From Cytophaga aurantiaca DSM 3654 (GTDB taxonomy: Bacteria; Bacteroidota; Bacteroidia; Cytophagales; Cytophagaceae), in assembly GCF_000379725.1 (NCBI RefSeq), contig NZ_KB903621.1, forward strand, positions 124,001 through 188,000: DNA of 64,000 bases. The letters are read 5' to 3'. Positions 1,430 through 37,738 of this stretch are shown piece after piece. The stretch's first letter is position 1; every line of letters starts with the position of its first letter. The position numbers were made by a program, and so were the translations under genes. Under the pieces are notes generated by a model. It ran no database searches. It saw nothing but the letters and a program-made list of their open reading frames with translations, and was not told the DNA's origin.

Positions 1430-1576
1430 CTATCCGTAGAGTTGGTGAAGCGCTCTACGATCTTATTATGAATAGAGTCTTTGACTCGTTTTTAATATTT
1501 TACCTAAGTTTACAAAGAGTCTAAAGAGTCTCAATTATTAATCATCCATAGAGCGCTTCGCTAACTCTACGGATAG
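1430..1576. repeat. Double-hairpin dispersed repeat, copy A
   Basis: A 147 bp element has imperfect terminal inverted repeats of about 32 bp. The left arm at 1430-1461 begins CTATCCGTAGAGTT and the right arm at 1544-1576 ends AACTCTACGGATAG. Inside is a second inverted repeat of AGAGTC/GACTC units near 1474-1488 and 1514-1531. A near-identical architecture recurs at 34308-34453. Here it lies between the 3' end of the aldo/keto reductase and the 5' end of the GH3 gene, both on the minus strand. It has no ORF. It could be a MITE or a REP/BIME-like element and could act as a terminator. Confidence 0.8.
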
Positions 1577-34307: not shown

Positions 34308-34453
34308 CTATCCGTAGAGTTAGCGCAGCGCTCTACGGATGTTTTGATAAAGGAGAGTCTCTGACTCGATTTATTTAAATACTTTTTAAAAACGAGTCGA
34401 AGACTCTGTTTCATTTACTGATCCGTATAGCGCTGCGCTAACTCTAGGGATAG
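34308..34453. repeat. Double-hairpin dispersed repeat, copy B
   Basis: This 146 bp element has terminal inverted repeats of 33 bp (34308-34340 and 34421-34453), reading CTATCCGTAGAGTTAGCGCA on the left. The inner inverted repeat is AGAGTCTCTGACTCG (34354-34368) with CGAGTCGAAGACTCT (34393-34407). It matches the element at 1430-1576 in length, arm sequence and internal organisation. It lies between convergent genes (stops at 34280 and 34478). Confidence 0.82.
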
Positions 34454-34477: not shown

Positions 34478-35188
34478 TTATTCATATCGTTTCCTATACA
34501 ACGCATCAATCTTACGATCAAGTGCATCGATCTTCTTCTGGATCTTTATTTGTTTTTTTGCTGATAGCCCATAATCATTCTCATTATACACTGCTACTGT
34601 ATCAGTAGCATAATCAGCATACTCTCCATAACTACTGCTTTCAAGCAAATTAAAAGACTTATCAACCGGATAAATGGTTTCTATTTCTCCTCCTGCCCAT
34701 TTATTTTGTAGAAAAACAAAACCATCACACTTAACAGCATAGTTTGTTGTGTCAGCTTTGAAATAAATTTTTACTATATCTGTTCTATAAAATGGAATCT
34801 CCCGCTCTTTTTTTAATTCGAAATCACAAGAATGATAGACTATTTTTGATGAATCGATCTGATTCTCCTGTTGCCATTGTTTAAATTCCCTATACGATTG
34901 AACAACATGTTCCTGTACTGCATTTTTTAGTTCGATCGAATCAGACATTTTCCCAATTTGCGTTTTATTCATTCTCTTATAGGAAGCAAGCATTTCATTA
35001 ATAAAATCCTCTGCATCATGTTGCGTCAACATATACTTGTGCGTAAAATCCTGTTCATTCAACGTACACAGATCTTTTATGTATTGCTTGGCAAGTGCTT
35101 CCGGGTCGGGCAGATCTGATGCAGAAGCGGTGCTGGTAATAAACACCATCATCATTATTTTGATAATGTATTGTTTGAATCTTTTCAT
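34478..35188 (-). CDS. Secreted hypothetical protein, tandem paralogue 1
   Basis: The 236-residue product has a signal peptide ending TASASD. It then shares nearly word-for-word segments with the gene at 35237: DLPDPEALAKQYIKDLCTLN, EQDF, KYMLTQ and QIDSSKIVYHSCDFELKK. The C-terminus is a charged coiled coil (KIQKKIDALDRKIDALYRKR). I do not recognise the family. The pair arose by duplication; this copy lacks the second acidic YDYETV repeat found in the other. Cotranscription is likely (48 bases apart). Confidence 0.78.
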   Translation of the reverse strand: MKRFKQYIIKIMMMVFITSTASASDLPDPEALAKQYIKDLCTLNEQDFTHKYMLTQHDAEDFINEMLASYKRMNKTQIGKMSDSIELKNAVQEHVVQSYREFKQWQQENQIDSSKIVYHSCDFELKKEREIPFYRTDIVKIYFKADTTNYAVKCDGFVFLQNKWAGGEIETIYPVDKSFNLLESSSYGEYADYATDTVAVYNENDYGLSAKKQIKIQKKIDALDRKIDALYRKRYE

Positions 35189-35236
35189 AAAATTGTTATT
35201 GATCTCTATATCAAAATAAATGTGGCTGAATTTATT

Positions 35237-36022
35237 TTAATACTCCGATTTGTCATACTCCTCAATCAGTACTTCAATTTTACGATTATAACCCTCAATC
35301 TTTTTTTGAATTTTTAACTGTTTTTTTGTTGGCGGTGTCTCGCCTGTATATTCATTTTTTTCTCCAACCGTTTCATAGTCGTAATCAACTGCTGCTACTG
35401 TATCGACAGCATAGTCCGTTTCTACATAATCATATGCTACTGCTACCGTATCAGTAGCGTAATCATCATAAATTTTATTAAGGTATTTATCAACTGCATC
35501 AATTCCATCAAAATCTCCTCCTACCCATTTTGTCTTTAAAAACAAGAAATCATCACAGCCCATTGCATACTTTAATGTATCATATGAAAAATATATACTC
35601 ATTCCATCTATTCCATAATACGGTACTTTACGTTTTTTCTCCAATTCAAATTCACATGAATGGTATTTTATTTTTGAAGAATCGATCTTATTTTCATGCT
35701 GCCATTCTTTAAATTGTCTGTAGGATTTTACAACCAAAGAATGTACTTCGCTTCTGATTTTAAGTGAGTCTGAAAACTTTTCACTGGGCTTGTTATTTGA
35801 CTCCAGATACGACTTAGTCATTTCATTTATAAAAGTTTCTGCATCCGCTTGCGTCAACATATACTTGCGTGTAAAATCCTGTTCATTCAACGTACACAAG
35901 TCCTTTAAATATTGTTTGGCTAGTACTTCCGGATCGGGCAGATCTGAAGCAAAGGTTGAAAAAGAAAATGCGAAAAGTATGGTTGAGAGTATACTCTTAA
36001 AAATTGTTCGTATTGGTTTCAT
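35237..36022 (-). CDS. Secreted hypothetical protein, tandem paralogue 2
   Basis: The 261-residue product has a signal peptide (LFAFSFSTFAS). The core DLPDPEVLAKQYLKDLCTLN, KYMLTQADAETFINEM and KIDSSKIKYHSCEFELEKK parallels the neighbouring gene. It has an extra Tyr/Asp/Val-rich repeat (YATDTVAVAYDYVETDYAVD) before the charged C-terminal helix. Family unknown. Its 5' end is 24 bases from the 3' end of the YwqK-like gene upstream. Confidence 0.78.
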   Translation of the reverse strand: MKPIRTIFKSILSTILFAFSFSTFASDLPDPEVLAKQYLKDLCTLNEQDFTRKYMLTQADAETFINEMTKSYLESNNKPSEKFSDSLKIRSEVHSLVVKSYRQFKEWQHENKIDSSKIKYHSCEFELEKKRKVPYYGIDGMSIYFSYDTLKYAMGCDDFLFLKTKWVGGDFDGIDAVDKYLNKIYDDYATDTVAVAYDYVETDYAVDTVAAVDYDYETVGEKNEYTGETPPTKKQLKIQKKIEGYNRKIEVLIEEYDKSEY

Positions 36023-36046
36023 GGATTTTCTATTTAATTAATTTTA

Positions 36047-37738
36047 TTATAATGATAATGCTTTCGGAATAATTGAAAGTTCGTAATTTAATTTATAAAC
36101 GCTATTATTAAACCTTGAATCGTCATATACAAGTTTTTCATTTATTAGAAATTGTAAGAACGCTTTTTGCTGCTTTTTATTTAATATCGTATGATATGTC
36201 ACGTTGCTAATTGTTCTAAAATACTTTTGTCGTGCCGAAACAAGCTTGTTTGGGGTTGTTGTAATATAAAAATCTATTGACGTTGAAATGTTCTTTAGAC
36301 ATTTTCCTTCAGGACTTGTTAAATAATTTCTGAAGTGTGTTAAAAACGTATCTCTATTAAAGACCGGTTTCAAATCAGGAAAGTCAACACAATCCCTACC
36401 TATGGATTCATCAATAATAATCCTATGGTGAGGTTCATCAAACCATACTTTTCTATTTCCACCTTCCATATCTTGAGATTTAGTAGTAATATGATTTGTA
36501 TTAGCCGGAGCTTTAATGGGAAATATTTCTTTCCCATTCTCATAAAAACTTTCTGAAATAAGGGACCCATTTTCATACAAACTGTTTCGTGTTAATTGCC
36601 CCTTTTCATTATATTCTTTTTTTGTTCCGTTTAATAAACCATTGCTGTAATAGGAGCTTGAAGCAAGTTTTCCATTTTTATAATATTCTTTTTGGAGGCC
36701 ATTTCGTGTGTATTTCAAATACATTGCTTCTCTTTCCACGATACCCGTTTCATAGTATTCGATATATTTTCCATTCATTGATCCTGCTACATAATTTTTT
36801 TCTTCCTTTTTATTTCCATTTTCATAATACCTTAAAACTGTTCCTTCATCTTTGTAATTTTTATAAGGCGTATAGTCTTCAATATTTCCATTTTCATAAT
36901 ATGATTTAGAATATCCATCACCTTTATCGTCATGGATGGTTTCATACTTTAGTTGACCTCCATAATAATATACAAAGGAACTATCACCCTTGTCTCCATA
37001 ATAGTACCGATACTTTACTGTGCCATTTTCAAACAAACAACTATCATAAATAAGTGTGTTGTCATTTGTTTTGAAAATCCGGGTTTTAATCTGCCCATTG
37101 TTTGAATAATATTCTTCATACTTGTCATTTGTTTTAGCAGTGTAATATCCTTTTTTCTGAAGAAACCCCTTATCATCGTACTCTATAAAAGGACCACTTC
37201 CAAAACCATTACTGTATTCATACTTTTTAGCTAATTGTCCATTTAGGTAGTACGTCTCATAAGAGCCATTCAATTTGTTATCCATATAGATACTTCTTTC
37301 TTTTAATTGGGTTGTGTCCGGATAATACAATTCAAATAACCCTTCTCTATCTCCCCTTTCACATAAGGCGATACCGGAATAATAAACAGTAAATAAGCGT
37401 TTACAATACATTCGGTCTTCTTTGAAAAAAGCGTTCGCATAAAGTGTTTTTTTATCTATTGAAAACCACTTGCAGGTATCATATAAACTATTATTCTTAT
37501 ATTTTCCTTTTGCAATTAATATTGTATCATTTGTTTCAGACAAAAAATAGTTGGCAAAGTCTCCCTGTTTCACACAGAGTCCATCCATTTCATAATTGAA
37601 TAAATATGGATAAAGCATAAAATGCAATATATGCCGCTCGCCAACAATTATTTTCTTTATTGTAAAGACTTCCTGAAGTTGCGCTTGAGATACTAGAGAT
37701 GTTATTAAAAAAAATAGAACGCCGATCAATCGTTTCAT
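36047..37738 (-). CDS. Secreted YwqK/MORN-like repeat protein
   Basis: The 563-residue protein has a signal peptide (SLVSQAQ) and about fifteen tandem repeats at roughly 140-410 of the form YYxNGxLxxxxxYxxGxxxG: for example YYLNGQLAKKYEYSNGFGSG, RYYENGNKKEEKNYVAGSMN and EYNEKGQLTRNSLYENGSLI. Databases call the family YwqK antitoxin, but no toxin is present. The C-terminal 150 residues resemble a globular TonB-C-like domain (DCVDFPDLKPVFNRDTFLTH). The role is unknown; cell-envelope protein is likely. Confidence 0.82.
   Translation of the reverse strand: MKRLIGVLFFLITSLVSQAQLQEVFTIKKIIVGERHILHFMLYPYLFNYEMDGLCVKQGDFANYFLSETNDTILIAKGKYKNNSLYDTCKWFSIDKKTLYANAFFKEDRMYCKRLFTVYYSGIALCERGDREGLFELYYPDTTQLKERSIYMDNKLNGSYETYYLNGQLAKKYEYSNGFGSGPFIEYDDKGFLQKKGYYTAKTNDKYEEYYSNNGQIKTRIFKTNDNTLIYDSCLFENGTVKYRYYYGDKGDSSFVYYYGGQLKYETIHDDKGDGYSKSYYENGNIEDYTPYKNYKDEGTVLRYYENGNKKEEKNYVAGSMNGKYIEYYETGIVEREAMYLKYTRNGLQKEYYKNGKLASSSYYSNGLLNGTKKEYNEKGQLTRNSLYENGSLISESFYENGKEIFPIKAPANTNHITTKSQDMEGGNRKVWFDEPHHRIIIDESIGRDCVDFPDLKPVFNRDTFLTHFRNYLTSPEGKCLKNISTSIDFYITTTPNKLVSARQKYFRTISNVTYHTILNKKQQKAFLQFLINEKLVYDDSRFNNSVYKLNYELSIIPKALSL

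Follow-up and report, generated by a model that had tools for sequence, protein, structure and literature searches.

Two imperfect palindromes, each housed in a gene-free spacer, are present in the window, a 64,000-nucleotide stretch of the Cytophaga aurantiaca DSM 3654 genome (G000:C2:124001-188000). Re-examination of the sequence placed element 1 at 1430-1576 (147 bp) and element 2 at 34308-34453 (146 bp), as an earlier sequence-only reading had given them, and the outer inverted repeats were also as that reading described. Element 1 is located between an aldo/keto reductase gene and a glycosidase-like gene, and element 2 at one edge of a ∼3.3 kb block of genes.

Two paired-hairpin elements in the window

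Each element was modeled as two half-elements in inverted orientation, annotated on the plus strand. The left arm of element 1 (1430-1462, plus strand) is a hairpin composed of CTATCCGTAGAG, a loop and CTCTACG, in which the loop and the 3' foot have diverged, and is followed by an inner hairpin GAGTC-TTT-GACTC (1475-1487, plus strand). The right half is read on the minus strand and comprises an inner box GAGTC-TAAA-GAGTC (1517-1530) and an arm hairpin with the loop TTAGCGAAGCG (1544-1576). Element 2 has a left arm hairpin CTATCCGTAGAG-TTAGCGCAGCG-CTCTACGGAT (34308-34340) and a left inner hairpin GAGTC-TCT-GACTC (34355-34367) on the plus strand, with a right inner hairpin GAGTC-GAA-GACTC (34394-34406) and a right arm hairpin containing two stem mismatches (34421-34453) on the minus strand. 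Inner GAGTC/GACTC inverted repeats had been attributed to both elements and were present as described, except in the right half of element 1, where the box is degenerate (GAGTC...GAGTC).

Folding as single-stranded DNA gave −36.1 kcal/mol for element 1 (z −9.8) and −46.6 kcal/mol for element 2 (z −12.6). None of 200 shuffles was equally stable in either case, and the structure of both elements is thus far beyond chance. The whole element can also be folded into a single long hairpin. A search of the window against Rfam returned 0 matches at the gathering threshold, and a known structured RNA family is not supported for the elements.

The family A half-element across the genome

Copies were counted in the whole assembly (4.42 Mb, 46 contigs, rated 100% complete). 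Element 1 alone gave 70 alignments on many contigs of its own genome, both strands counted. A covariance model of the half-element gave at least 60 matches at E ≤ 1, at least 50 of them at E ≤ 0.001; the model scored 150 of 2739 first-look candidates and the copy number is therefore a lower bound. For the census 55 of the 60 matches were used, comprising the 50 strong ones and 5 weak ones facing a strong half, and the remaining five weak matches (E 0.038-0.33), one of which (C3:65098) belongs to a second repeat family (family B, below), were left out. The census comprised at least 36 sites (55 halves), of which 19 were inverted pairs (122-163 bp) and 17 were lone halves or arms. Both halves scored above 50 bits in 14 of the 19 pairs, and in the other five one half was decayed or truncated. 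Two of the pairs form one tandem duplication of ∼729 bp that includes a full element (L016:14559-15434, on G000:C13). An integron attC/cassette array at C13:205-212 kb was considered and rejected, as ordinary genes flank the elements there and two of the copies are part of the tandem duplication. Across the order of the window, 19 of 390 genomes matched the family A model at E ≤ 1e-4 (own genome included, stricter filters).

The unit of family A, which is characterized by a TAGAG stem, is the half-element, and two half-elements face-to-face constitute the full element. An alignment of 35 halves, collected through sequence similarity to the arm with pairing playing no part, was utilized to define its anatomy. 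The arm is a 33-nt hairpin, CTATCC[G/T]TAGAG-TTAGCGNAGCG-CTCTA[C/A]GGAT, with a 10 bp stem. It is followed by an AT-rich spacer of ∼11 nt and a small hairpin AGAGTC-nnn-GACTCG, the 5 bp stem of which is GAGTC/GACTC. Both stems are kept by compensatory changes. Of 594 stem cells 97.3% were paired, and 5 pairs and 22 cells had changed on both sides; none of the 500 shuffles reached any of these measures and slid versions gave at most 3 pairs and 3 cells. One arm-stem position is G-C in 16 halves and T-A in another 16 of the 35. Covariation had been proposed as a check on the sequence-only reading, which was to be abandoned if only two copies existed or if compensatory changes and conserved boundaries were missing among copies; compensatory changes within the arm are strong, conserved boundaries are present and the copies exceed two.

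Local and long-range pairing were compared in 10 of the 19 full elements. Stem cells paired locally in 192 of 200 cases vs 186 of 200 for the long-range partner. Among 100 stem positions 88 keep both pairings, 8 break both, 4 keep the local pairing only and 0 keep the long-range pairing only. The conserved unit looks like the arm hairpin, with the long palindrome a consequence of two facing units, and the local preference is modest.

Overlap with predicted ORFs of at least 100 aa was absent from 34 of the 36 sites. The other two comprise one site with a 9-bp overlap and one that falls in the 5' portion of a 583-aa predicted ORF with an uncertain start. Among the 34 sites with two neighboring genes, 14 were convergent, 19 co-directional and 1 divergent (convergent vs divergent 14 v 1, p = 0.001). 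This bias favors an explanation in which the elements are RNA or DNA hairpins useful to the host at the ends of genes, under selection as bidirectional terminators or mRNA 3'-end stabilizers, with mobility only as their historical origin. Folding as RNA, which is very stable (z −11.9 and −13.6), and short T runs after some inner hairpins favor it too. Promoter avoidance alone would, however, yield the same orientation bias, element 1 lies between same-direction genes in a spacer that is element-free in both congeners, and the window contains no Rfam match. Furthermore, single halves and single arms are common, and in other genomes arms bracket genes for REP-associated tyrosine transposases (RAYTs). 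Selection as a terminator or stabilizer is accordingly judged improbable as the main explanation, and a putative secondary terminator role is possible.

Element flanks, RAYT genes and family B

The flanks of 13 full elements were examined for target-site duplications. A direct match of at least 3 bp was found in 0 of 13, and one of 2 bp in a single element. Both congeners (G001 and G002) have the aldo/keto reductase and glycosidase-like genes adjacent to one another, and element 1 was absent from the orthologous spacer in 2 of 2. In the spacer after the aldo/keto reductase gene of G002 (L221) a different palindrome with a 13-bp stem, CTTCTGAATCTGC...GCAGATTCAGAAG, is located where element 1 sits. 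The block of ∼3.3 kb at the edge of which element 2 lies is missing from both congeners, and a clean empty site for element 2 is lacking for that reason. The block spans 34478-37738 of the window and contains three genes, encoding two similar proteins (236 and 261 aa) and a 563-aa protein; in G001 and G002 it is missing between an OmpA-like gene and a PAS-domain gene. At E ≤ 0.01 family A is represented in the congeners by at most a decayed trace. Two matches were obtained in G002 (a solo hairpin with a ATCCGTAGAG stem and a family-B-like half) and one in G001 (family-B-like).

A MITE derived from a classical DDE-transposase IS, with ∼33-bp terminal inverted repeats, would account for the many copies, the predominance of pairs near 147 bp, the terminal inverted repeats and the conserved CTATCC...GGATAG ends. 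MITEs were among the earlier guesses. This origin is largely refuted: target-site duplications are missing (0 of 13 at ≥3 bp), every arm forms a covarying hairpin of its own, half-elements and isolated arms occur, and the gene found between such ends elsewhere encodes a Y1/HUH protein; a DDE-type MITE is scarcely credible.

One genome per species was scanned with the arm pattern TAGAGTTAGCGNAGCGCTCTA, in a scan from which own-genome records may be left out. The 50 stretches obtained included ones from Adhaeribacter, Rufibacter, Daejeonella, Sphingobacterium and Bacteroidetes MAGs. A RAYT-like ORF was identified by motif in 6 of the 50 (L114, L125, L147, L154, L162 and L163). A search for a transposase with matching ends, which the sequence-only reading had called for, was successful in genomes other than that of the window: in 5 of the 50 stretches (L125, L147, L154, L162 and L163) the RAYT lies ≤200 bp from an arm. 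A rough density estimate, based on the highest density seen (17 RAYT matches in 4.2 Mb), gives ∼0.2 expected cases, with a p value, also rough, of 5e-5 for four cases (five were observed). By eye, arms flank the RAYT on both sides in L125, L147, L162 and L163. In L147 the order over ∼720 bp is arm, spacer, inner hairpin, gene, inner hairpin, spacer, arm. In L154 a half-element is located 38 bp upstream of the RAYT start and the contig ends with the gene. L119 and L154 are contigs titled as a Bifidobacterium breve MAG, yet they carry Bacteroidota-type REP halves and a RAYT; the L154 sequence is also that of contig C177 in G104, a genome from the same order as the window, and the Bifidobacterium breve label of both is probably wrong.

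The arm-associated proteins matched Y1_Tnp in a profile search. The three family A RAYTs tested against the NCBIfam model REP_Tyr_transpos (NF047646, REP-associated tyrosine transposase) all exceeded its cut-off of 80, with 101.1, 95.2 and 97.2 bits, and the same three gave 24.8-31.1 bits against the IS200 model NF033573, below its cut-off of 55. Family A RAYTs contain the motifs NHIH, FWQQ and YLHENP, the last of which is not an exact YIH[QN]NP as tabulated in PMC6006769; the arm-associated protein thereby has HUH and tyrosine motifs together with the RAYT profile. A phmmer search of the PDB sequences with one RAYT as query found no match at E ≤ 0.01, and the link to the RAYT fold consequently rests on the Pfam and NCBIfam profiles. 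A tree of 27 rows placed the six RAYTs located beside TAGAG-type arms (L125, L147, L154, L162, L163 and L184) in one clade with support of 100/99. Loop type mapped onto the RAYT tree required 3 changes vs a shuffled mean of 7.7 (0 of 500 as low), with labels assigned by the authors and 9 of 11 extra loci lost to the ORF filter; these figures do not establish that the loop type arose once.

These profile scores bear also on an explanation in which the elements are non-autonomous derivatives of an ordinary IS200/IS605 element moved by a host TnpA of the IS200 type. In the own genome, four proteins of IS200 size (152-158 aa) match PF01797 strongly, and in G002 the solo ATCCGTAGAG hairpin lies ∼100 bp upstream of an IS200-type gene. 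Three tested arm-associated proteins nevertheless exceeded the RAYT equivalog cut-off and fell short of that for IS200. Within 8-10 kb around any of the four IS200-type genes no family A arm (≤11 of 33 mismatches) was detected, the only hit being one 12-mismatch chance match; the own IS200-type TnpA was rejected as mobilizer on this basis. An IS200/IS605 origin is considered very improbable.

A RAYT of the family A clade was not found in the own assembly of 46 contigs, in which a gene within a repeat-rich gap is possible. The best own match to a family A RAYT, at 40% identity, is a broken family B gene. Three intact own RAYTs have 33-37% identity to a family A RAYT, fall outside the clade and are without such elements alongside. 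Flanking of a RAYT by family A repeats was seen in other genomes and in no own-genome RAYT. Since no cognate RAYT was found in the own assembly, the family A copies look like an orphan population, and they are probably now fixed.

Family B has the four-hairpin architecture of family A, with a stem CTGGCGCCAGTC-TTAGCGNAGCGG-GACTGGTGCC and an inner hairpin GCAGTC-TTT-GACTGC. Its elements lie on both sides of the broken RAYT in the own genome (L039:4101-5068, G000:C3:65.1-66.1 kb) and enclose RAYT genes in the congeners G001 and G002, of which that in G001 has an internal stop. RAYT genes, some containing internal stops, lie between related stems in G004, G012 and G017. RAYTs with two-hairpin ends of quite different stems and loops (e.g. 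CAATCGCCCTCG-tttgcaa) were also seen at L073, L105, L196, L198, L079 and L106. The observations suggest several further REP families in the window's order.

The halves of the small elements could be compared with those beside the RAYT genes. By eye, one spacer of many full elements reads G-TTTAATA and the opposite one C-nnAAATGAAA, although 2 of 13 full elements could not be oriented in this way. In L147, L162 and L163 the G-TTTAATA type resembles the half downstream of the RAYT and the C-nnAAATGAAA type the half upstream, and this match of polarity is evidence that the small elements descend from an arrangement carrying a RAYT. The arm upstream of the RAYT in the same three stretches has a different, larger loop, and the small element is therefore not a plain internal deletion of the RAYT-bearing elements.

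Relation to REP systems and proposed mobilization

The preferred reading is that the elements are non-autonomous REP/BIME-type repeats (REPINs), mobilized in trans by a Bacteroidota RAYT of subclass 2.6 (Quentin 2018; Bertels group 5), to which a probability of roughly 0.8 is assigned. It is supported by the many copies, the occurrence of inverted pairs and singles, the compensatory changes, the missing target-site duplication and the RAYT genes bracketed by arms elsewhere. Short intergenic palindromes, single and in inverted pairs, are a REP/BIME (REPIN) trait and were found here. Of the three earlier guesses (MITE, REP/BIME-like element or transcription stop), the REP/BIME-like one with a trans-acting transposase is retained and the MITE is set aside. 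The modest copy number, a foot without GTAG/GTGG and the lack of a matching-clade RAYT among those found here count against the preferred reading.

Each half would be a substrate end, comprising an arm hairpin with the loop TTAGCGNAGCG and a CT foot, an AT spacer and a small second hairpin; the full element would be two such ends inverted, with the middle reduced to ∼6-24 nt. Hairpins may be extruded when the locus is single-stranded (e.g. on the lagging strand). By analogy with studied systems, the HUH/tyrosine RAYT would bind the extruded hairpins, nick near the CT at the hairpin foot and rejoin the DNA elsewhere without target duplication, by which new copies could build up in intergenic spacers. 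The cleavage step, the strand, the origin of new copies and mobilization itself are all inferred in this scheme.

The foot was compared with that of canonical REPs, which have GTAG/GTGG at the 5' foot of the hairpin. Here the foot is CT followed by ATCC. A stem-internal GTAG reads TTAG in 16 of 35 halves, and neither form is at the foot. The foot T is invariant and the foot C nearly so in the 35 own halves. In a wider set a CT foot was found in 50 of 91 distinct TAGAG-type arms and in 34 of 41 other-stem arms, the latter bin including three TAGAG arms read in another register; 7 rows were excluded from the count as chance, two of which (one each from L136 and L143) are genuine TAGAG arms. The 41 TAGAG-type arms without a CT foot comprise 33 from Adhaeribacter/Rufibacter, 31 of which read GTT, and 8 from the own genome and seven other sources. 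A universal CT foot is thus not supported. The wider set was gathered by loop motif and pairing, and the constancy of the loop across families is therefore partly ascertainment. A broader and more tentative proposal, rather less likely to hold than to fail, is that subclass 2.6 RAYTs use a non-GTAG rule, namely a constant mini-hairpin loop TTAGCGNAGCG (GCGNAGC core) on an arbitrary stem, a CT foot (GTT in Adhaeribacter and Rufibacter) and a second small hairpin, and that one such family, with the TAGAG stem, crossed Bacteroidota orders with its RAYT and was orphaned here after RAYT loss.

IS200/IS605 elements have subterminal hairpins recognized by a Y1 transposase, a likeness to the ends described here, and they too produce no target-site duplication. 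They differ from family A, whose tested proteins fall below the IS200 cut-off and whose ends consist of a pair of inverted two-hairpin units. E. coli REP/BIME with TnpAREP (subclass 2.2) and Pseudomonas REPINs share intergenic palindromes in inverted pairs and a link to a Y1 transposase. In contrast to these, family A is without a GTAG foot, has a simple stem without a conserved bulge and has an extra inner hairpin on each side. Its copies number tens vs about six hundred in E. coli (PMC8266576). Cleavage in the TnpAREP systems covered by the same source occurs at CT next to the hairpin, and in one of them also at CA (PMC8266576). In TIRYT/TIRtron units a RAYT-like gene is flanked by long terminal inverted repeats that bear no relation to GTAG REPs (Di Nocera et al., 2013, PMC3733652). 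Some of these repeats are likewise self-complementary and occur as repeat families; the species named there are outside Bacteroidota, and the likeness is one of described organization (PMC3733652).

The closest match is to the subclass 2.6 RAYTs, which are mostly from Bacteroidetes, have the motifs NH[LIV]H, WQ and YIH[QN]NP, and are flanked by 'atypical secondary structures' without a GT[AG]G foot that have additional copies at other places in the genome (Quentin et al., 2018, PMC6006769). Family A agrees with this account in its Bacteroidota hosts, in a RAYT of ∼180-190 aa that contains NH[LIV]H, WQ and Y-H-NP, and in flanking structures that are without GT[AG]G and have copies elsewhere in the genome (PMC6006769). 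No anatomy of these structures was found in the main text of that paper (PMC6006769). Here the two-hairpin end, the TTAGCGNAGCG loop, the compensatory stems and the paired inverted elements are defined, and the cognate RAYT was not found in the own genome. No earlier description of family A was found in the literature searched, and the supplementary table of PMC6006769, which falls outside that search, may list the family. Family A fits the description of subclass 2.6 in the main text, to which anatomy, covariation and distribution are added (PMC6006769).

The bench-studied RAYT systems described in these sources are proteobacterial, with GTAG as the recognition mark. In family A the end is defined by two hairpins, a recurring loop and a conserved foot, transposases matched to it occur in several genomes, and the population here is apparently orphaned; together these features make GTAG-independent recognition directly testable. 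Family A also explains a class of repeated intergenic hairpins in Cytophaga-like genomes, which could be mistaken for terminators or RNA elements.
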